Assembly: GCA_000169115.1 (NCBI GenBank)
Contig: AAVV01000004.1
Location: 186,001 to 250,000, forward strand
Reading direction: 5' to 3'
DNA: 64,000 bases
From: a marine gamma proteobacterium HTCC2080
GTDB lineage: Bacteria > Pseudomonadota > Gammaproteobacteria > Pseudomonadales > Halieaceae
Shown: piece by piece, positions 50,820-64,000 of the stretch
How the letters are laid out: the number at the start of each line of letters is the position of its first letter
How positions within the stretch are numbered: the stretch's first letter is position 1
Notes under the pieces: generated by a model
Told to the model about the DNA's origin: nothing
What the model saw: only the letters and a program-made list of their open reading frames with translations
The model's database searches: none
Program-made: the position numbers and the translations under genes

Positions 50820-52211
50820 ATGGCTCGCCCACCAAAAGGTAGCTTAACGAGTATTTTGAGTGCATTTATGAAAAACACACCCTTAACGATGATCGATTTA
50901 TTCGCTGGTTGTGGTGGATTATCTCTAGGTATGGAGCAAGCGGGATTTACGCCCATCTTTGTGAATGAGCTAAATGATGACGCACGTGCCTCTTATTTAC
51001 TGAATCGAGACTTCGATCTAAAAGGGAAGCCATTTAATCAATGCCATGAGCTTCACTCCGCTGACATATACGAGCTCACACAAAGCCGACTTAAGCAGCT
51101 CAAAAAACATTTGCTCGATCTTGGCCTCATTACAGACCATGACTCCCACACCTCACTAGATCTAATTTGTGGCGGACCACCTTGCCAAGGCTACTCTGGC
51201 ATCGGTCATAGAAGATCTTATGCCGTTGAGAAAAAAGATGTGCCCTCAAACCAGCTTTACGAAAAAATGGCAGAAATTATCGAATTTTTCAGACCCAAAA
51301 TTTTCCTATTTGAAAATGTAAAAGGCCTGCTTTCATCAAAGTGGACCGATGAGGGTGCTAAAGGCGAGATTTGGCAAGATGTTTGGAATCGGTTTAACGC
51401 GATCGAAGGCTACACGATTCATTGGCAACTTGTCTCTGCGAAAGACTACGGTGTGCCACAAAATAGGCCTAGGGTTCTGCTGGTAGGTATACGCAACGAC
51501 GCGATGATGTCAGATTTGGAAAAGCTCCAGCCCATAGTCGAGGCACAAGCTTATGATATTGGAGCTGCGGTCAAATGGGGCTTTCTTCCAGAGCCTACGA
51601 AAGACTATCCCGATCCAAAAATTCTGCTGGGAGATTTGGTGGATGATCCGGTGAAAGATATCCTCCTCAGCGGTAAATATCCGAATGATTTCTCTACAAA
51701 GCGCTACCCAAAGTCAGCTTCCCACAAGCTTCAAAAGCAGCTAAGAACTAGACCTGGAAGTAAAAGTGCCGAGCGAAAAGGCAATGAAGTTACGGAACAT
51801 GAGTACAGCAAACATAAACCATCGGTAGTAAAGAAATTTGCCGCTATGATTGAAAACGACGGCGTTATCCCCGATGAATTCAAGACAAAGAAATTTGCAC
51901 AAAGACTATTAAAGCCCGAGTGGCCACCTGAAGGGCCGAACATTACCGCCACGTCATTACCGGATGACTACGTTCACTTTAGTCAACCTAGAACATTGAG
52001 TGTCCGTGAGTGGGCGCGACTACAGATGTTTCCAGATTGGTATCGGTTCGCAGGTAAGCGCACGACAGGTGGAACCCGCAGGGCAGGCAACCCACTTGAG
52101 GGCAATTTTGACAGAGAGGTCCCGAAGTACACCCAAATTGGAAATGCGGTTCCGGTGAAACTCGCGCTGGAAATTGGTCGGCATTTCGCAACAAAACTGC
52201 TAAACCAATAA
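50820..52211 (+). CDS. DNA cytosine-5 methyltransferase of a type II R-M system
   Basis: This makes 5-methylcytosine in a specific DNA site, protecting the cell from its own nuclease. The 463-residue protein has the conserved motifs in order: DLFAGCGG at 26-33 (AdoMet binding), GGPPCQGYSG with nucleophile Cys122, ENVKGL with Glu165, QNRPRVLLVGIR, and at the C-terminus TQIGNAVPVKLA. The variable target-recognition region lies at about 230-400. The start is uncertain: ATG at 50820 has a close GGGG, and ATG at 50868 (giving MKNTPLTMIDLF) is the alternative. The nuclease gene follows on the same strand about 200 bp later. Base use is visibly more AT-rich than the genes before it, which suggests transfer. 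Confidence 0.92.
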   Translation: MARPPKGSLTSILSAFMKNTPLTMIDLFAGCGGLSLGMEQAGFTPIFVNELNDDARASYLLNRDFDLKGKPFNQCHELHSADIYELTQSRLKQLKKHLLDLGLITDHDSHTSLDLICGGPPCQGYSGIGHRRSYAVEKKDVPSNQLYEKMAEIIEFFRPKIFLFENVKGLLSSKWTDEGAKGEIWQDVWNRFNAIEGYTIHWQLVSAKDYGVPQNRPRVLLVGIRNDAMMSDLEKLQPIVEAQAYDIGAAVKWGFLPEPTKDYPDPKILLGDLVDDPVKDILLSGKYPNDFSTKRYPKSASHKLQKQLRTRPGSKSAERKGNEVTEHEYSKHKPSVVKKFAAMIENDGVIPDEFKTKKFAQRLLKPEWPPEGPNITATSLPDDYVHFSQPRTLSVREWARLQMFPDWYRFAGKRTTGGTRRAGNPLEGNFDREVPKYTQIGNAVPVKLALEIGRHFATKLLNQ

Positions 52212-54363: not shown

Positions 54364-56004
54364 CTAAGTAATGACGTTTGATCCTTGTGAGTAAAAATTA
54401 AACGCTTCATCACTACTGGTTAACACGTCTAGACGTGCTGTCGCCCGCGTGAGACCAACAAATATGTCCTCCTTACCTAACGCCCTGCTAGTATCCGGCA
54501 AATCCATCTCGATCAAAACAACATGCGCTGCCTCCAGCCCTTTGAATGACTTGATCGTAGAAAAATAGACATAGCCCTCTTCGCCCAATTTTGTGAGGTC
54601 AGTCGTTAGCTCTAACTTGTGCCCCACCTTGTCAGCTCTTCCCATGCAACTGTTGTCGAGTGCGTATGGACTTAAAATAACCGAGCCTCCTCGAGGGTAA
54701 AGCTCGTGAGCTGCACTCCATGCGCGTAGTGCCATCATTTCCGTTTTTACCAAAGAAACGGTCGGAGGAAGTCCCTCGGCCATACCCGGCATTGACCTAA
54801 AATCAGTTCCGCATATGGTATTAGTGGCTGTGTTAATGCCAATAGGATTTCTGCAGTTATGCACCAACTTAAAGGTGACGTCAGGCCAGTTTTGCATCTC
54901 TTCAGCATCATGGTAGAGGCTCTGATTAAAGTCAGAAAACATAAGGAACTGCGGGCGGCCGCTATCCTTTAAAAGAAAACGAAGCGCAAAAACTCTCTCA
55001 CCTAAAAAGTCTTGCCCCTCGTCGACGATAATGAGGTCGTGTTGGTAATCGTTAACCTGGTCGATGACCCTTTCAGGCAAAGTATGGGTGAAAAAGTCTG
55101 AGCTACCATTATTTCGAGCAGAGGTAAGGTCAGTGAACAATTTATCGACCGAGTGTATCGAGCTTGATATATCCGGAAACTTCAGCTTTAAAAATTGAGC
55201 AAGCGCCTTGTTAAAGCAAACGTATATAGCGCTCTTGCCCTCGCCGAGAGCGGCTTGGAGCCGCCATATAGCCAACAACGTCTTTCCTGACCCCGCTGGC
55301 CCTATTACCCCCACATCTCTTAGCTCAAAAATGCCCTTAAGTGCTGCAAATTGTTGCTCTGTGAGGCTCTCCACCTGATGAGCGGTTTCCTCACTTTCTA
55401 ACTCAGTGTCCGTCGGCTCTACTATGAAGTTGCCATTAACCAAAAACTTGCCACATTTTTCTGCCAAGGATCGACTGAATTGCGTTGCAAGTGATTCAGG
55501 CCCTCGGTCTCGAAGCGTTGTCAAAACGACCTTTTTCAGTGACCCAATATCACGCTTGCTTACGACGGAATTGGGGTGGTACATGTCTAAAGCTCCTGTA
55601 ACTTTCCCATTGGGATAGACGACTACCCAACCAAACAAGCCAGGGAAAAATTTGTGCCCAAGGAGATCCGCAAGTCTACTGGTTAAATTATGTGAATTAC
55701 GGGTGGCCTGCTCAGGCGGAGGAGTAATCTTTTGTTTAGACCCGTCTCTCTTAATCAGAAGCCAGTCACCAGCATCCGTTACGGAAATACCTGTCGAGCC
55801 CTTTACCTCAATGACCACGAGACCTTTTTCCGGAACTAAGACAACAAAATCCGCCTGCCCATCACGAATGTAACCAGCTTCCTCGCGGCAGGAATAAGAT
55901 ACATCACACACCACGATCCAGTCGTCGGGTAGCTGCCGCTGCAGTTCTCTCTTTACAACCTTCTCCCACCGGTCGGAAGGAGAGCCCCCTATCACCCTCG
56001 CCAC
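54364..56004 (-). CDS. NERD nuclease-domain/SF1 helicase fusion protein
   Basis: The 546-residue protein joins an N-terminal NERD (nuclease-related) domain to a UvrD-like helicase. NERD residues Asp52, Glu66 and Lys68 (QADFVVLV, VIEVKGS) fit a restriction-like catalytic site. Helicase motifs are the Walker A loop GPAGSGKT at 235-242, the Walker B VDEGQD at 327-332, motif IV-like HNCRNP, STIKSFKGLEA (motif V) and GLTRATARL (motif VI). The GTG start at 56004 touches the stop of the upstream giant helicase gene, with GGAG eight bases before it, so the genes are co-translated. NERD-helicase fusions occur in phage-defence islands; role here is inferred. Base use matches the rest of the island. Confidence 0.88.
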   Translation of the reverse strand: MARVIGGSPSDRWEKVVKRELQRQLPDDWIVVCDVSYSCREEAGYIRDGQADFVVLVPEKGLVVIEVKGSTGISVTDAGDWLLIKRDGSKQKITPPPEQATRNSHNLTSRLADLLGHKFFPGLFGWVVVYPNGKVTGALDMYHPNSVVSKRDIGSLKKVVLTTLRDRGPESLATQFSRSLAEKCGKFLVNGNFIVEPTDTELESEETAHQVESLTEQQFAALKGIFELRDVGVIGPAGSGKTLLAIWRLQAALGEGKSAIYVCFNKALAQFLKLKFPDISSSIHSVDKLFTDLTSARNNGSSDFFTHTLPERVIDQVNDYQHDLIIVDEGQDFLGERVFALRFLLKDSGRPQFLMFSDFNQSLYHDAEEMQNWPDVTFKLVHNCRNPIGINTATNTICGTDFRSMPGMAEGLPPTVSLVKTEMMALRAWSAAHELYPRGGSVILSPYALDNSCMGRADKVGHKLELTTDLTKLGEEGYVYFSTIKSFKGLEAAHVVLIEMDLPDTSRALGKEDIFVGLTRATARLDVLTSSDEAFNFYSQGSNVIT

Positions 56005-59000
56005 TTATGACTCTCCTACCCTTCTTGCAATAATCTTTAGGCCCGGATTTTTACTCGGTTCATATTTCCCTCCAGCCTTGCGCTTTGCAGCTTTTTTCCC
56101 CGGTATCTGCCGCAAGCTTACAAGTTCTGGAGCGCTACCTTTAGTGACCTGTCCATCTGAAATGAGCCACTCGCCATCTTCCGCTGACCACAAATCTTGA
56201 GGGGTAAGTTTCATCCAGCTCGAATCAAGCCAATCAAAGGTGTCACCAATATCCGTATCCATCCACATATCAAAAAAGGTATCGTCAGCGCCGGAATCTG
56301 TGCCCTCTAACATCACATCGTGAGTCATAAAAATATCGCGATTATCTTTGTTTCCTATTACCCAAGAAACGCGTCGCTCTATATTGAAAGTATCTATCAA
56401 CATGACATGATTGCAGCCTGACACCTCCAAAAGTTCATCTATGGACTTTGAAATTAGAGTCCCCTCGCCAGGGCGATAGGACCAAAGGGGATGGGCAACA
56501 ATATTCATGTAAGTCTGAGAACCCTTGGTACTGACTACTCCTATAATTGGCGAGTCGTCATCCAGCCTACGGACACTATTTTCGTCTTCTCCCAAGGCTG
56601 CAGCCAACATTGATGCAGCCTCAGTAGCACGAGCTACCCAATCCCCGTTCACAGACGATAAGGCCACTGAATAGTCTCTAGAAAAACCAGGCATGTAATC
56701 GGCATCGCGTAAAACGGAAAGTAAATCTATACCCAACTGCCAGTCGATCAGCCCATGAATATTCTTGTTTCTAAAGCCCTTTAACAACGCATCGGGACTT
56801 CGCCAACTCTCACCCAAAGAAGCGCGCTCATTTGCCTCTATAAGAAACCTACCCATCTGAGCTAAGTTGCCCTCTGCACTGGTGCAACCCAGCAATAAGG
56901 CGCTCCAATTCCTGTTGGCCCAATCAACTAACCCTGCGCCATTTGGGTGCTCATCGGCTAAATAAAGCTCAGCCCCACTCGACTTATCAGTGCTATGAAA
57001 GTGGACGGATGCGATTTCAATGGAAGTTGAATCAACATCTAGCTCCAAGGCGATTGCGCGTTGAAGAATTGTTGCAGCTGAATACCAAGCCGCTCTGCGA
57101 GCTGCGACTTGCCTATCGACATCAAAAAAACCCAGACCGTTACCGTCGTTGGCCCTTATACCCAAAAGGTCTGTCGTTTTCGGAGCAAAAAATCTAACGC
57201 TCACATCCGGCGACTGATCAGCTGTTACCCAGATATCCTGCGAATCAGAGAAAACCTTCTGCGGATTTTTATCGGAGCTTTTTGGTGGAACTGAAACTAC
57301 TCCAACCCTCTTGAATTTAAAGGAACCGCCAGACATCTCCTTGCTAACTTTATAAACCTCGCCCTGAGCACTAAACGACAACTCAGCTCGCCCCTCTTTC
57401 CGAATTTTCGCATCAATCAATTTCGGCGATACCACCACAGACGTCGCGGCTTTAGACCTATTTGAATCCGCATGACTGGTCGGAGTATCGACTTTGAAGT
57501 CTGTGATAAACGCGACTGGCGTCACTGCGCAATATCGCTCCGCCTGCGAATCTCCACAACTCGGACAGACGACAAACGAATCTTCATCTACTTCTTCCAG
57601 TTTTATCTCATGTACTTGAAAATGTCGGCATGCTTTGCAAAAGATTTGCCGCTGAACAGAACTGACTGCAGGTGTCTTAACCTCCCAATTTCCATTTTTA
57701 TATCCTGAGGGACGAATATGTCCGGATATACCTTTCACACTCAATAGCCTCTTATCCCACACCAACTCATTATTTGGAGCGAACTCCAGAATCGCCTGAG
57801 AAAGATCTCGATCTAAGGTCTTCGGCTCATTGCTGGATGATGCGTTTGGTAGGTCAAAATAAAGATCCCTCACCATCGTTGGCATACCGTACATCGGGAG
57901 TACACCTGCCTCAGCTAGCGATGAAGCTACGCCCTTATCTAAGTCTGCCTGACTGGACAGGATCTCATCACACAACGGCAATAATTTTTCTGTTGCGTAC
58001 TCAAAGAGAGTGTCGGCTTCAATTTCGGTTCCACGCGCTATCTCAGCCGCGCATTTTTTTATTGTCACGGTGTTTGTCGCTAACCAAGTCGATATTGCCT
58101 GCTTAAGCTTTGGGCTTTCTAAAAAATCTCTAACCACGCCCATTTCCCCATTGGTATCAGGAGGGCTGCCAGAATCCTCCCAGGTCATCCCAGCCTGTCT
58201 AAACCCTAATCGGAGAACCTCCTTGGCCATTAGTCGGCGCGCAAGGATAGCTTGATCTGATCCAACTGATAGTGAAGGCTGTGGGGGAGTACCACCCGTC
58301 ATCTCTTTTGGATGATCAAAATGGATTCGATCGTGAGTCTGACCGCGTGAGTACGTAAGTGCGACTGAAAAAGGCTGCCTCTTTCGGCCTGCCCGACCTA
58401 CTCGCTGCTGATAATTAAACCGCTCTGGTGGCATATTTGCTTGCAATACCGCTTGCAGCGAGCCTATATCAACTCCGACCTCCATTGTGGTAGTTACCGA
58501 TAACAGATCAATCGCATCTACAGCTGGATTAACGTCCCGAGAGGTCGAATCATCTTCAATAATTTTTTCGTTCTCGTAAAAAACTTCTCGGAAGTGACGC
58601 TGACGTTGAGACTGCGCTGTTGTCTGCCCAGTAAGCTCTTCAGCATGCACTCTCAGGTTAGAGTCCTCGCTGCTCGCGAGCAGCGCATAATAATTTTTGT
58701 CTATGAGGCTACCTGCTGTCATGACACGATCGTTTGTAGATAGAGACTTAAAGCATCTAGAACATACTTTCCCAGAGTCATGCAGATGAATTCGTCCACA
58801 CGAAGGACACTCTATGACTTGAGAGCTTGCATCAACGACGGTTATCCAAAGATACGACAGCTCTACAACCCCCCACTGGTGTTGCGCAGATTGAAGCTGC
58901 GTCCTTACCGCCTCTTGCAACGTGCCCATTTGTGTTGTCCAAGTGACTGCACAAGCCTCCAGATAATTTAAAATCCGCTTTTTCTTTTCGGATCTAGATT

Positions 59001-62000
59001 TGTTATTTGGCTCGTCATCCCTCCATGCTTCAGCCCCACCCTGATCGAATGGATAGGGATTAACCAAACGCTCCTCCGTCAAAATTCGGAGAACTGAAGA
59101 ACATATCTCAGAGAAAGTCTGGACCGTTAAGCTTCCGGGAGGAGTAACCTTCGAATTAGGTGGAATAACGAAATATCCAAACCCTTTCGCTTCCAAGTCG
59201 TATAGCAATTTACCTGAAATGGCCTTCCATGACGCTTTTCGAATTTCCTGACCCAAATTTCGTAGGAGCGTCCCATCTTCCGAAGTGAGCTCATCGCTCG
59301 GTCTTAAAGAGGGCATCCCATCTGTAAAATCAAACAGTTCAGGCCACCTCTGAAACCTCACATCTGGACCAGCCGGCGGCACGCCGAGCTTCACCAGATT
59401 CGACCAAAGCCCAGACAGCGGTTTGTCTGGCGTAGGAATACTGAAGACGTCATCTAGCCGCACTGTCTCTGGCGTTGCTAATCTCGACTTCGCCACACGA
59501 TCTTTTTTAAAGTCATCCGCGAGGTCTGGATATTCAGTGATCGTTTTGTAGTCTTCGAATACGGATACTATTTCCCTAAATGACTGATCGGGTAATGACG
59601 CCTTGAGCCGAGTCAAAAATTTCGCGCCTGCCGAGATACCCTCTGCATCACATATTTCGAGTAATTGTTTAATCGCGACAAAATTTGAATTTTTTACATT
59701 AGACGATATCTCATCGAGTACGAAGTGTTGAATGAGGTGAGACCATTGCTCTTTCTCGACATCGTCAGCTAGCCTTGCTGCCGCTTGCCTACTATCTGAG
59801 AAAGCCACCAATTTCTTCGATGAGCCCTTGGGTAAACTCATCATTAAATGCTTAGACAACAATAAAGACATTTGCACCAAACCCGTCGCAAATGCTCGGA
59901 TAGGTGAATAGCGCCCCCCCTTGCGGCGTGAATAGTCTGAATGGCACTGGGGGCACTTTTGCGGCATAGCCTTGTAGTCAACACTCTCTTCTGGAGATGC
60001 AATTAAATCAAAGAAAAGGCAATGCACCTCGCTTTTTGTGATGTTTTCAAAGGTACCAAGCGTCACTACACCACTTTCAAAGTCATAAATAGCCGGTTGC
60101 CAAGACGCTTGAGCCCTAGAGACAGGATCTCCAAAAAAACCTCGAGCAATTGAGCCCTGCTGCCAGTCTTCAAGACTGTCGGCGGCCGAATCCTTTGTGG
60201 GTAACAAGTAGATTACACCGATGGTGGCGTAGTCGGTCTCATCTGTTCGAACAACAGATCCATCATCAGGTAACTGCTCAGGATTACCTGGTAGAAAAGA
60301 TAGTTCTGTCTTTACTTTAGATAAAGGAATGCGAAAGCCCGAGAGCAGTTGAGTACCGCAGCATTCACAGTACAAAACCTCAAGCAATCTATTCTTAGAG
60401 AGCCCTGTTGCAGCTTCAGCCGAGAGCTTACCAACCCGCCTTCTTTCATCTGATCCATATTCAGCTAAGTTGCCCGTCGCCCAAACGCCAGAGATATTCT
60501 TCATCATCCAGTGAAATCTGAGTCTAGGCAAATTCAAGTTGCCTAGATTTGGATTAGCAGCAGAAGCTCCAACAACTCTGAGCAACGCCCCTCCTGCCCT
60601 TTCAGCAGAATTCTTTGAGGCAAATGGGAACCAGCCTTTTACCACCTCAGAAAAAGGGGTCGCTCTGTATCTTTCTTCAACAGGGTCAAAAAATGGCTGG
60701 AGTAAGTATTCGGCGGAGCCAAAGCGGCTGAGGATCTCGTATGCGTTGTCCAGCAAATCAGGGGATAAAGCGCCGTCGTTGGCTGTATCTAAGGCATCAA
60801 ATAATTTCTGGCCCAAGGACGGGCCCGAGATCGCGACAGGTTTATAAACTAGCTCGCCTGCTTCGATGTGAAATGAAGCCTTCGCCTGAGGTAATGACAA
60901 GCCAAACATGGCTCCAAGGAACTCATAGCTTGAGGCATCTGTTCCGTCCAAAGATGCACTCGATGCCAAAATTCGTAGCTGAGTGCTAGTAGCGTCAAGC
61001 CCGAGGCGAGCAAGGAAAAGTCGAATTAAGTAGGCCACTTCTGTTCCATCAGCCCCTCGATATAAATGGAGTTCGTCAATAACTAACTGGAAGACATTCC
61101 TTGGATCTTTAAGCCAACTTCTTGTGGCGTCGAAAACATCAGCGTCGGATCTGTCGTCCGGGTAATCAGGGTGCTTTTGACGCATGAGCATAATCGAAAG
61201 CATGCTCGTATTAGTAATTAGAATATCGGGAGGAGATCGCTGCATTTCCCATCGGTGAAACATCTCCGCAGAATCAACATTAACTCTGGGAATGAAAGAC
61301 CTTTGATCGATTAGTCTGTCCAGCTCAACATCAAGCCTTTTCACCTCCACGCCATCATTTTGCGCGAGCGCGTGAGATATCAGTTTTTGCAGTGAGGTTA
61401 TTTTTTTATCTAGATCTTCACTCTGCTTAATTGCAGATTTTAGCTTGGTTCTAAGCTCCCCCCGCTTGCTAAGATTAGACTTCGATCCACCTGCTCCATC
61501 ACTAATTACTGGATGGCCTGAAACGGGGGTCGAGCCATTGTATCTACCAAATCGGATTCGGTTGCCCTCGACATATTCATCGAGGACCAGACGCGATTTC
61601 TCTGAATCTAATGCAGACCGTAGTCTAGATATCTGGTCTTCAACTAGTGCATTCATTGGATAAAGAATCAAAGCTCGGACTGCCGGAACCCGCGACTCTC
61701 CTCTGAGTTGACTGGCCGTATCGGACCATTTTGGTAAGGATTTTTGAGTCCACTTCGATGCATTCGGAATAGAAGGTGCAGCCCAACGCTGCTTAGGGGA
61801 ACAAGCTTCGCTAACTATCTGTGCCAAGACGGGTAGAAGAAACGACTCCGTCTTTCCTGATCCAGTACCCGTCACGACAACTGCATGTTTGCCTGACAAG
61901 CTTTGTTTAAGCATATTTTGCTGGTGTGTATACAACGCAAACTCATCGGGCACCAAACCCTCGGACACCAATGCTTTGAATGCTGCAATAGCCGGCGCAG

Positions 62001-62253
62001 ATAAGCCGGGAAGACCGGACTGATCGAGTTCAGTTACATGAGATCCGGTTTTGTATTCTGGAAGCGGTTCCAACATAGGTTCTTGGAAAAAAGCGCCTGG
62101 CTCATCCAGTATCCGCTTTCTCTCTTCCTCAAAGGATGGCGAGTTGGTTCCAAAAGCCGACGTCACATACTTCTGCAAAAACCAACGCAAATCATGGAAA
62201 GCACCCATTGGATCGTCAGAAATCTTTCTTACGCTGCTTTTCCCGTTGCTCAT
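56005..62253 (-). CDS. giant DEAD/DEAH helicase with DUF1998-like C-terminus, DruE-like
   Basis: The protein has 2082 residues. The N-terminal helicase core has a Q-like motif LYTHQQNML (107-115), Walker A GTGSGKT (129-135), LYPMNALVEDQ (197-207), DELH (393-396) and SSASL (431-435). The second RecA domain has TTMEVGVDIGSL and the arginine-finger motif QQRVGRAGRKRQ near 1280. Cysteine pairs CECCG, CPQC, CPSCGRIH...CSRC and CKAC...CPSC are probable zinc sites. LADEHPNGAGLVDW near 1757 resembles the DUF1998 core. Size and layout match DruE of the Druantia antiphage systems, but the assignment is from family resemblance. It overlaps the upstream gene by four bases and abuts the NERD-helicase gene. 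Confidence 0.82.
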   Translation of the reverse strand: MSNGKSSVRKISDDPMGAFHDLRWFLQKYVTSAFGTNSPSFEEERKRILDEPGAFFQEPMLEPLPEYKTGSHVTELDQSGLPGLSAPAIAAFKALVSEGLVPDEFALYTHQQNMLKQSLSGKHAVVVTGTGSGKTESFLLPVLAQIVSEACSPKQRWAAPSIPNASKWTQKSLPKWSDTASQLRGESRVPAVRALILYPMNALVEDQISRLRSALDSEKSRLVLDEYVEGNRIRFGRYNGSTPVSGHPVISDGAGGSKSNLSKRGELRTKLKSAIKQSEDLDKKITSLQKLISHALAQNDGVEVKRLDVELDRLIDQRSFIPRVNVDSAEMFHRWEMQRSPPDILITNTSMLSIMLMRQKHPDYPDDRSDADVFDATRSWLKDPRNVFQLVIDELHLYRGADGTEVAYLIRLFLARLGLDATSTQLRILASSASLDGTDASSYEFLGAMFGLSLPQAKASFHIEAGELVYKPVAISGPSLGQKLFDALDTANDGALSPDLLDNAYEILSRFGSAEYLLQPFFDPVEERYRATPFSEVVKGWFPFASKNSAERAGGALLRVVGASAANPNLGNLNLPRLRFHWMMKNISGVWATGNLAEYGSDERRRVGKLSAEAATGLSKNRLLEVLYCECCGTQLLSGFRIPLSKVKTELSFLPGNPEQLPDDGSVVRTDETDYATIGVIYLLPTKDSAADSLEDWQQGSIARGFFGDPVSRAQASWQPAIYDFESGVVTLGTFENITKSEVHCLFFDLIASPEESVDYKAMPQKCPQCHSDYSRRKGGRYSPIRAFATGLVQMSLLLSKHLMMSLPKGSSKKLVAFSDSRQAAARLADDVEKEQWSHLIQHFVLDEISSNVKNSNFVAIKQLLEICDAEGISAGAKFLTRLKASLPDQSFREIVSVFEDYKTITEYPDLADDFKKDRVAKSRLATPETVRLDDVFSIPTPDKPLSGLWSNLVKLGVPPAGPDVRFQRWPELFDFTDGMPSLRPSDELTSEDGTLLRNLGQEIRKASWKAISGKLLYDLEAKGFGYFVIPPNSKVTPPGSLTVQTFSEICSSVLRILTEERLVNPYPFDQGGAEAWRDDEPNNKSRSEKKKRILNYLEACAVTWTTQMGTLQEAVRTQLQSAQHQWGVVELSYLWITVVDASSQVIECPSCGRIHLHDSGKVCSRCFKSLSTNDRVMTAGSLIDKNYYALLASSEDSNLRVHAEELTGQTTAQSQRQRHFREVFYENEKIIEDDSTSRDVNPAVDAIDLLSVTTTMEVGVDIGSLQAVLQANMPPERFNYQQRVGRAGRKRQPFSVALTYSRGQTHDRIHFDHPKEMTGGTPPQPSLSVGSDQAILARRLMAKEVLRLGFRQAGMTWEDSGSPPDTNGEMGVVRDFLESPKLKQAISTWLATNTVTIKKCAAEIARGTEIEADTLFEYATEKLLPLCDEILSSQADLDKGVASSLAEAGVLPMYGMPTMVRDLYFDLPNASSSNEPKTLDRDLSQAILEFAPNNELVWDKRLLSVKGISGHIRPSGYKNGNWEVKTPAVSSVQRQIFCKACRHFQVHEIKLEEVDEDSFVVCPSCGDSQAERYCAVTPVAFITDFKVDTPTSHADSNRSKAATSVVVSPKLIDAKIRKEGRAELSFSAQGEVYKVSKEMSGGSFKFKRVGVVSVPPKSSDKNPQKVFSDSQDIWVTADQSPDVSVRFFAPKTTDLLGIRANDGNGLGFFDVDRQVAARRAAWYSAATILQRAIALELDVDSTSIEIASVHFHSTDKSSGAELYLADEHPNGAGLVDWANRNWSALLLGCTSAEGNLAQMGRFLIEANERASLGESWRSPDALLKGFRNKNIHGLIDWQLGIDLLSVLRDADYMPGFSRDYSVALSSVNGDWVARATEAASMLAAALGEDENSVRRLDDDSPIIGVVSTKGSQTYMNIVAHPLWSYRPGEGTLISKSIDELLEVSGCNHVMLIDTFNIERRVSWVIGNKDNRDIFMTHDVMLEGTDSGADDTFFDMWMDTDIGDTFDWLDSSWMKLTPQDLWSAEDGEWLISDGQVTKGSAPELVSLRQIPGKKAAKRKAGGKYEPSKNPGLKIIARRVGES

Positions 62254-64000
62254 AATTCAATCCACAGCTTGCAGTCCAACTTCGAGGCCAGAATCGAAGC
62301 AATATATTCGGGTACACCTTCATAAACCAGCCAAGTACCCTCAGCCATGTCGTGATACACAGCAGGTACAGAGGCGACCTTTCGCATAGATTCCTCGCAG
62401 AACAGCTCAAATCTATCATCCGGCGAATTGTCAGAAGTTAAGCATTTTACTTTTGTTGGAAGGAGTCCCGCAGAAGCGCACAAAGCGCGCTCTACAATAG
62501 AGGGCAATCGCAGTCGGGCAGGCAGAATTAGCGAGTTAGTTTCAGAGCGGTAACACAAAGGCCATGGACTCAATGCGGGATAGCCGGGCAACGTGCTTGC
62601 GAAGTCAATAAAAGATGTAAAAGCCAACCACACAGCCCAACTTGAGTCCTCGATATAACTATACGTTGCACGATCCTCTTTGTTTATAGATCCCAGCATA
62701 GATACCCGCATAGCTGGAATGATTGGATCGTCTAGTCGGAATAACTCGACCTGCCTACTTGCATCTACCTTCATGCTGCCCAAAGCATCGGTAGTGAAGC
62801 GAGCCTGATTAGGATTAAATCGCTCCAGATTAGACGGACTACTTCTCTCCGCTATGGTTCTCTCACCAATTCTTGACCGCAACCCCGAAACTGAGCCCGC
62901 CCAACTCAATATGTTCGCCGCCGGATTTGCAACCATAAAAAAATTATTATCCCGAGCGAAAGAATGTAAGCTTCGAGAGTCACTAGTCTCCCAAAAAATA
63001 TTAAGAATCCCTCTAAGGGCAAAAACACGTACCTCGTTCGCCTTAATCAGATTCACCCATACAATTTGTCGGAAAGTTCCCGAAAACCTCCATCGGGAGA
63101 GGTTTGGATTAGTCGTATCGCAGACCTCATAAATTATTGGCTCGCAAGCGTGAATTCTTATTAGATGACCTCTTTGATCCGTCTGAATTTCGAGGTGCCC
63201 TAAGGACTGCATGTCGTACAAAAAAGGTATGGGCGACAACCATTTATCCGAAGATGAGAGGTTTAGTCTACTGATTAGCTGCTTTGCCTCTCCAAATAAG
63301 AGCGAACCTTTAGACGCTAGCGCATCCATAAATTGCACTGATAACCAATCTGTAGGCGAGGTTTCAATTTTCCAGCTATCAAACAAAGAGGGCTTTTGGT
63401 AGCGATCAAAGTTGGGGGTCAAATGAACGGCATCTTCTGCAGGAAGTGTGTAGCCCCTAATGCCGTTCGAATCCAACCTAGGTTCACCGTAAATTCCTAC
63501 TGAAAAATCTTTATGTAGCCCAACCGCAGCACCTGCCTCAGACGCTATTTTCAGTCTCTTAGTACAAAGTTTTTTACTACCCTGCTTAACACTAAGCTCA
63601 AACTGCAGCTTATTGCTGCCTTCCAGACGCGCGAGCGAGTAATGCTTCGCAGAAACATGTTTTTGTCCACTTTTGGAGCCTAGTGAGGGAGCTAGCTCCG
63701 TAATGGTCAGCCCATCACACTCAAGCACAGAATTCGGTGGCATTTGCACCTCGACGTGTGGCAGATCGTAGTCAAGATACATTCGTCCCCCCGCCCTCTG
63801 AATAACGCAACCGCCGTAAAAGGAGATACGAGCACGCTCTTCGGCACCGCTGTCGTCTCCAATCAATCTTTGCACCGCCGACCGTTCACTGGGGCGAAGA
63901 TCATCAACATGCTCGATCACCCACAACCCCCACTTCGAGGACAGCCCATCAGTATCAGCAATCCGCTCAAACTTCGAGCCAAGCTCATTCCCCAACTGCT
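62250..64000 (-). CDS. large protein encoded ahead of the DruE-like helicase, 3' part (DruH position)
   Basis: The visible 583 codons run off the right edge with no start; the first Met-like codon (TTG at 63995) is probably internal leucine. The stop overlaps the helicase ATG by ATGA (62250-62253), so the products are made together. The sequence is soluble, mixed alpha/beta, with no motif I recognise. In Druantia type III a protein called DruH is encoded beside DruE, and this gene occupies that position, which is context, not homology. AT-rich like the rest of the island. The full gene and any upstream partners lie outside the window. Confidence 0.6.
   Translation of the reverse strand, partial: QLGNELGSKFERIADTDGLSSKWGLWVIEHVDDLRPSERSAVQRLIGDDSGAEERARISFYGGCVIQRAGGRMYLDYDLPHVEVQMPPNSVLECDGLTITELAPSLGSKSGQKHVSAKHYSLARLEGSNKLQFELSVKQGSKKLCTKRLKIASEAGAAVGLHKDFSVGIYGEPRLDSNGIRGYTLPAEDAVHLTPNFDRYQKPSLFDSWKIETSPTDWLSVQFMDALASKGSLLFGEAKQLISRLNLSSSDKWLSPIPFLYDMQSLGHLEIQTDQRGHLIRIHACEPIIYEVCDTTNPNLSRWRFSGTFRQIVWVNLIKANEVRVFALRGILNIFWETSDSRSLHSFARDNNFFMVANPAANILSWAGSVSGLRSRIGERTIAERSSPSNLERFNPNQARFTTDALGSMKVDASRQVELFRLDDPIIPAMRVSMLGSINKEDRATYSYIEDSSWAVWLAFTSFIDFASTLPGYPALSPWPLCYRSETNSLILPARLRLPSIVERALCASAGLLPTKVKCLTSDNSPDDRFELFCEESMRKVASVPAVYHDMAEGTWLVYEGVPEYIASILASKLDCKLWIEL

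Follow-up and report, generated by a model that had tools for sequence, protein, structure and literature searches.

A Druantia-like operon joining a DruF-DruL fusion, DruE and a NERD-helicase in the marine gammaproteobacterium HTCC2080

The stretch analysed here (the window) comprises 64,000 nucleotides of the marine gamma proteobacterium HTCC2080 (NCBI GenBank assembly GCA_000169115.1, contig AAVV01000004.1, positions 186,001 to 250,000 of the forward strand), and our subject is a putative antiphage operon at its far end, a trio of genes related to the Druantia defence systems. In the open reading frame (ORF) list of the window and contig, the trio appears as three minus-strand genes in one compact block in the order A-B-C, namely a fusion of the Druantia subunits DruF and DruL (gene A), a DruE-type helicase (gene B) and a NERD nuclease domain fused to a second helicase (gene C). 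A first-pass annotation, made from the letters and the translated ORFs, had described three tightly coupled genes, and the coordinates agree, with a 4-bp overlap (ATGA) at the A/B junction and directly abutting genes (0 bp) at the B/C junction. The window end cuts gene A, and the contig (G000:C22) runs further; extending it upstream, as that annotation had proposed, gave the first gene complete at 1000 residues (L002:12251-15253 on the minus strand, window-equivalent 62250-65252).

Gene B matches the PADLOC model DruE2 with 1627 bits over residues 13-1971 and the DISARM model DrmA with only 30 bits. The resemblance of this 2082-residue helicase to DruE that had been noticed in the letters is thereby borne out, and the PADLOC and NCBIfam scores rule out the alternatives raised at the same time, a DISARM or a DNA repair helicase. 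The split DrmA plus DrmB arrangement of DISARM was not found at the locus, gene B being one DruE-type gene. Pfam recognised DEAD and Helicase_C domains, together with an MZB (DUF1998-type) match that lies below its cut-off, and residues 1870-1985 hold no conserved acid/lysine pair. In one relative, from a Planctomycetales metagenome-assembled genome, DruE is split over two overlapping ORFs (L010:4061-10325), which we attribute to a frameshift or an assembly error.

The description of gene C as a NERD domain fused to a UvrD-like helicase likewise holds, given its Pfam matches to NERD (E 4.4e-10) and UvrD_C_2. It also matches the PADLOC models RTasNERD-Hel (110 bits) and C3a187 (67 bits) and, in profile comparisons, PDB chains of DNA helicase IV and GajB; the PADLOC model matches rule it out as a DruG. 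The NERD residues E14, D52, E66 and K68 are invariant in 14/14 gene C homologues, as are the Walker A and B residues, among them G-P-A-G-S-G-K-T (235-242) and D328-E-x-Q-D332. Glu66, within the E-V-K motif, and Lys241, within Walker A, had been picked out beforehand as key residues, a choice that this invariance supports. From the fold family, we infer a catalytic role for E14, D52, E66 and K68. Gene C is the only trio protein in which a complete nuclease motif was found.

Gene A had been set down as a large unrecognised protein; its size stands, but it can be recognised. Neither Pfam (at E 0.1) nor NCBIfam gives a match, and no nuclease motif was recognised in it. PADLOC DruF4 matches residues 8-270 (E 5e-26), and DruL4 gives a weak match at the C terminus (residues 900-996, E 8e-6). 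In a hidden Markov model (HMM) of the gene A family, built from 14 proteins, residues 6-517 line up with DruF and residues 750-1005 with DruL, both of which are stand-alone proteins on two cyanobacterial type IV plasmids (L041, L042), and the order is co-linear. Judged by PADLOC and this family HMM, gene A unites in one protein the DruF and DruL that type IV encodes separately. Such fusions are known outside the trio from two loci (L061, L067), both without gene C, where they fit the two long DruF2 models of PADLOC (1011 and 1030 residues) end to end; the C-terminal parts of these models in turn match DruL proteins. DruG models matched neither gene A nor gene C at E 0.01.

The first-pass annotation had let its proposal depend on whether the NERD-helicase is conserved beside DruE, and we found it there in all 12 DruE relatives recovered from GTDB genome contigs (12 relatives among 19 pattern matches, in a scan that was seeded with exact DruE peptides and samples near relatives), each with the A-B-C order kept. 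One further trio locus in genome G676 (L036) brings the total, with the window, to 14 loci from ∼10 lineages, which span three phyla (Gamma- and Betaproteobacteria, Limnochordia of the Bacillota, and Planctomycetales). Five of the 12 relatives are near-copies (L004, L005, L009, L013 and L014, gene A 68-85% identical). The place of gene C is the same in 14/14 loci, at a spacing of 0-23 bp or with a 1-bp overlap. With the full trio, in unchanged order, present in 12/12 relatives, the operon is more than a chance arrangement.

In a tree of 31 DruEs, the 13 from trio loci group together as a single clade with an SH-aLRT of 100, nested among the type II/IV DruEs; this is a quick tree without bootstrap, in which several non-trio rows stand on long branches. 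The pairwise distances of the three proteins are closely correlated, with values of 0.974 (A-B, n 9), 0.933 (A-C, n 10) and 0.954 (B-C, n 9) after omission of four near-copies of L004 (L005, L009, L013 and L014), each at p 0.0001; L010, with its split DruE, was left out of the tree and of the DruE correlations. Judged by their sequences, A, B and C form a unit that is co-inherited. Three genome samples that overlap in part (398, 385 and 394 genomes) yielded six genomes, besides that of the window, with a DruE2 match of >1000 bits, and two of the six hold the trio, namely G676 and G1438, the latter being the same contig as L012 and counted once.

Ortholog-level copies of gene C were found in 0 of 37 sampled relatives (with one weak helicase match) and in 0 of 368 other genomes of the class sample (with three matches at 27-29% identity). 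Since the trio is so rare among these relatives and class genomes, we suggest that it was acquired horizontally here. The flanking genes gave no usable empty site across 24 congeners, where the flanking alcohol dehydrogenase has only 39-44% identical homologues (12/24) and the flanking DUF763 gene is found in 1/24. When viral_contigs were scanned with the NERD-helicase profile, the matches listed (at least 599 stretches) included a single relative, at 25% identity; the scan with the DruE C terminus gave 0/33, and none was found in GenBank phages at E 1e-20. A viral origin was set aside, as the viral_contigs and GenBank phages searched gave no sign of phage carriage.

Among the 13 non-trio type II/IV-like loci, none carries gene C, and the NERD-helicase is not a Druantia part outside the trio clade. 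Its placement outside the canonical Druantia sets by the earlier reader is upheld in this respect, although the list of sets given there had omitted type IV. The gene directly after DruE is a nuclease in 5/13 of these loci, a PDDEXK_1 protein in three (L035, L043 and L058) and Vsr in two (L044 and L046); a nuclease in this position recurs without being a rule. Others carry GmrSD_N (L049), a methyltransferase (L045) or a DruF-like gene (L060) in that position, L061 has a ParB_N-like gene 607 bp after DruE, and no nuclease stands directly behind DruE in L041, L042, L047 and L048. The Vsr genes may be repair companions of the methyltransferase. From plasmids, 10 of 17 DruE matches were examined (H5-H10, H13, H14, H17 and H18).

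A different superfamily 1 (SF1) helicase protein follows DruE on the plasmid locus L067; it scores 21 bits with the gene C profile, its N terminus is nuclease-like by eye only, and its relatives (34-36% identity) occupy the corresponding position in L037 and L062, two type I-like loci. This second family, of ∼655 residues, stands directly behind DruE in all three (L067:12226-14193, L062:12246-14222 and L037:13981-15945), and further relatives lie on or beside DUF1998 features of Sinorhizobium plasmids. Distant relatives of gene C itself (27-31% identity) are found after a methyltransferase-Vsr pair in genomes G162 and G209, behind an unclassified 1463-residue ORF in G237, and in Thermomicrobium without such neighbours; on Rhizobium pTA1_2 (L073), a 27%-identical NERD-helicase starts 1 bp after DrmA-DrmB. 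Since such relatives stand behind both DrmA-DrmB and methyltransferase-Vsr, the gene C type of nuclease-helicase is reused across systems. The Rhizobium genes make up a DISARM-like array (L073:1967-8620) of DrmA, DrmB and NERD-helicase with a GajB-like helicase ahead. The two methyltransferase-Vsr-NERD-helicase arrays (L077:8171-11320 and L078:5941-9090) come from genomes of different families, and their NERD-helicases are identical at 526/533 residues, which suggests a recent transfer.

Table 1. Position of the trio and of the features discussed with it in the window
Feature	Window position	Strand	Basis
Gene A, DruF-DruL fusion, 1000 aa	62250..64000 (C-terminal part, 582 codons)	-	ORF list, contig
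Gene B, DruE, 2082 aa, superfamily 2 (SF2) YprA-family helicase with DUF1998 module	56005..62253	-	
Gene C, NERD nuclease fused to GajB/UvrD-like SF1 helicase, 546 aa	54364..56004	-	
DruE residues ∼1870-1970, nuclease-like segment without conserved PD-(D/E)xK motif	56344..56646	-	
NERD domain of gene C, residues 12-114	55663..55971	-	Pfam; invariant E14, D52, E66-V-K68
C5-cytosine DNA methyltransferase, 463 aa, apparently swappable DruM-like neighbour	50820..52211	+	Pfam, PADLOC
MvaI/BcnI-family restriction endonuclease, 402 aa	52418..53626	+	Pfam, PDB profile match
Restriction enzyme N-terminal domain, ∼140 aa	52418..52837	+	Alignment with gene A of L008 and L015 and GmrSD-type protein of L006

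Outside the operon, 2.2 kb from the trio and on the opposite strand, the window carries a C5 methyltransferase (Pfam DNA_methylase 1e-57) whose best PADLOC matches are MTase_II (233 bits) and DruM2 (171 bits), paired with a restriction enzyme of the MvaI/BcnI family (Pfam MvaI_BcnI 4.6e-55; R.MvaI in PDB, E 7e-15). The first-pass annotation had not linked this pair with the operon. In 12/14 loci, the trio has a C5 methyltransferase at a distance of 92 to 4133 bp; eight are Pfam-confirmed and the other four are 88-92% identical to that of L004 or to each other, whereas the L010 contig ends early and L036 has none in the sequence available. Those of L004 and L009 share 71-74% identity with their counterpart in L058, a true type II locus. 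With near-copies included, methyltransferase distances correlate with those of DruE (0.92, p 0.0006) and of the NERD-helicase (0.905, p 0.0011), but without them the correlation with DruE vanishes (r 0.04, p 0.33, n 8). Because these distances do not track DruE, we read the methyltransferase as swapped, and it does not co-evolve with the trio. In L004, a 1037-residue protein with N6_Mtase and weak Eco57I matches lies between the NERD-helicase and the C5 methyltransferase (L004:18956-22069, minus strand), and L005, L009, L013 and L014 hold near-copies of it (88-91% identical).

The first 140 residues of the window restriction enzyme recur at the N terminus of gene A in L008 (46% identity over 140 residues, E 2e-36) and L015 (32%, E 3e-13), with a weak match in L007 (E 2e-4). 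The same domain (34%) is fused to a GmrSD_N (DUF262) protein adjoining the trio in L006 (L006:20583-22211, minus strand), and L007 has a complete MvaI/BcnI-like enzyme beside the trio (37% over 392 residues). This ∼140-residue domain, which has no convincing Pfam or PDB match, is undescribed. On plasmids, 7/7 records matched by the domain are annotated with MvaI/BcnI enzymes, and in 5/6 of the plasmid regions examined none of the three trio profiles finds a match. The sixth, L067, carries druFL-druE-SF1 helicase-methyltransferase-restriction enzyme on one strand, and its methyltransferase and restriction enzyme are 60 and 41% identical to those of the window. The joining of a restriction-enzyme domain to DruFL is the best hint that recognition of sequence or methylation feeds the machine.

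Just past the window, upstream of and divergent from gene A, lies a pair of an XRE repressor and an ImmA/IrrE peptidase (L002:16925-18006, plus strand), which scores 46 bits with capH and 82 bits with capP in PADLOC and may be the controller of the island. A helix-turn-helix gene with ImmA/IrrE also adjoins the restriction-modification (R-M) pair that carries the N-terminal domain on Acinetobacter plasmid L068.

We consider it somewhat probable that the trio is a three-gene variant of the Druantia II/IV branch (druFL, druE and the NERD-helicase) that works as follows. DruFL would be the sensor, which recognises DNA that is foreign or unmodified, or some structure on such DNA, and then loads DruE; in some members it would be aided by a recognition domain also present in type II restriction enzymes. 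DruE would open the duplex as an SF2 translocase, acting as loader and unwinder, and the NERD-helicase would supply the nuclease in trans, unwinding the exposed DNA and cutting it; the methyltransferase would mark host DNA, the least certain step. The sequence-based part of this proposal consists of gene identity, co-inheritance, intact active-site residues in the NERD-helicase, the lack of a conserved nuclease motif in the DruE C-terminal segment and an adjacent, apparently exchangeable methyltransferase. The roles are modelled on Druantia III, in which DruE, a helicase that loads on 3' single-stranded tails, unwinds DNA and has a PLD nuclease of its own, DruH is the likely sensor, and the partners are thought to set the trigger (PMC13192584). 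Loading on foreign DNA followed by its degradation, as the first-pass annotation had suggested, is plausible. The domain is present in 5/14 trio loci, in three kinds of protein, and absent from 9/14. A nuclease follows DruE in 5/13 relatives and not as a rule, which slightly lowers our confidence in this proposal and in the bolder version below.

A bolder version, which we hold to be rather unlikely, is an ATP-dependent R-M machine of interchangeable parts, in which a swappable 5mC methyltransferase would define self, a portable MvaI/BcnI-type domain would aim DruFL or sit on a companion restriction enzyme or GmrSD protein, and DruE and the NERD-helicase would destroy unmarked DNA. If true, Druantia II/IV-type systems could draw target specificity from type II R-M parts, and a nuclease in trans would replace a degenerate one on DruE. 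A quite conceivable alternative is that, as in Druantia III, a DNA structure or a phage protein is what the trio senses, while the methyltransferase and restriction enzyme make up a type II R-M system of their own that has gathered in the same defence island. The window pair is complete in itself, lies on the other strand and ends 737 bp from gene C, methyltransferase distances do not track the trio, and the N-terminal domain belongs to MvaI/BcnI enzymes in all seven plasmid records, five of six regions having no trio profile match. Druantia III, moreover, loads on 3' single-stranded DNA with no methylation mark reported (PMC13192584). Such a separation is harder to reconcile with the presence of a methyltransferase near 12/14 trio loci, with a gene A that is physically fused to the R-M domain in L008 and in L015, and with the one-strand arrangement of L067; a methyltransferase is also a named component of Druantia type II (PMC8565338, PMC10273834).

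For gene C, two other roles have to be weighed against that of a nuclease in trans. It could be a suicide effector that acts on host DNA once DruFL and DruE detect infection (abortive infection), much as the NERD domain of PglW has been proposed to be a backup suicidal nuclease in BREX type 2 (PMC12839542). Its steady third place and its close co-evolution with the other two genes fit a core enzyme better than a backup, and ARMADA, which has a parallel SF1 helicase gene, is reported to be non-abortive (PMC12458937), so we regard this role as improbable. That gene C is an independent defence gene hitch-hiking by chance behind druE seems to us hardly credible, for although distant homologues do occur elsewhere (the Rhizobium DISARM-like locus, G162, G209, G237 and Thermomicrobium), its fixed place within 0-23 bp or a 1-bp overlap in 14/14 loci and the B-C correlation of 0.954 speak against it.

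The trio bears on what Druantia II/IV systems sense and on which subunit cuts DNA. It is a compact three-gene form whose nuclease is obvious and can be mutated, and a domain fusion found in nature ties the putative DruFL sensor to a restriction-enzyme family of known targets. It makes two ideas testable, the methyltransferase as self mark and DruE as loader for a nuclease supplied in trans. The NERD-helicase also joins the recurring nuclease partners behind YprA/DUF1998 helicases, alongside PDDEXK_1, Vsr and the related NERD-helicase of the DISARM-like locus.

Among known systems, the architecture of gene C, NERD plus a UvrD-type helicase, resembles RTasNERD-Hel and C3a187 of PADLOC. The former model is labelled DRT, which we take to stand for reverse-transcriptase defence; reading the ORFs around the operon, the only means used here, revealed no reverse transcriptase. 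The Rhizobium locus L073 shares the succession of helicase and NERD-helicase but differs in its DrmA/DrmB split, and no DruF or DruL was recognised in it. In ARMADA type II, too, the gene behind a YprA-family helicase encodes a GajB-like SF1 helicase to which an N-terminal nuclease-type domain is fused; its ArmD, however, carries a RelE-like RNase where gene C carries NERD (PMC12458937). The ORFs adjoining the operon, only part of which were scanned with PADLOC, include no recognised BrxHII- or PglX-like gene.

In the literature searched, the pairings of Druantia with NERD are the NERD of TALON and NERD in Mokosh and Nhi-like systems, and NERD, DUF1998 and a helicase come together only in Bell et al. 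Those authors mention unappreciated diversity in Druantia types I and II, for which they use the name type IV CoCoNuT and which feature an inactivated CnuB-like GTPase (PMC12458937). The accessible main text of the CoCoNuT paper does not mention NERD and names only Druantia type III (PMC11090510). Druantia joined with a NERD-helicase or MvaI was not found in the main texts, to which the search was confined, and the trio may already stand in the supplementary tables of Bell et al.

Type II (DruM, DruF, DruG and DruE) resembles the trio in that DruE2 is the best DruE model of gene B and a methyltransferase is usually nearby. It differs in that no DruG match was found in gene A or gene C, whereas DruG models match L044, L045, L046, L049 and L058 (in L058, DruG 1735 bits and DruF 1713 bits), in the NERD-helicase after DruE, and in the methyltransferase, which stands outside the operon and is apparently exchangeable. 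With 171 bits for DruM2 and 233 bits for MTase_II, the window methyltransferase is a possible DruM. Type IV consists of DruE, DruF and DruL and is defined without DruM and DruG (PMC8565338). DruF is present in the trio, as is DruL in fused form, the window protein alone being a weak match; there is no DruG match, and the C5 methyltransferase with its DruM2 matches, a possible DruM, lies 2.2 kb away on the other strand. The cyanobacterial type IV loci L041, L042 and L048 have no nuclease gene directly after DruE, and the DruL-type locus L035 has PDDEXK_1 there. In the trio, by contrast, DruF and DruL are one gene and the NERD-helicase is an extra, fixed one. Type IV is nevertheless the closest type by gene content, since its DruE belongs to the same branch and its DruF and DruL have the same sequences as gene A and align with it co-linearly, and the trio is apparently an undescribed branch or variant of Druantia on the type II/IV branch, with a predicted antiphage role.

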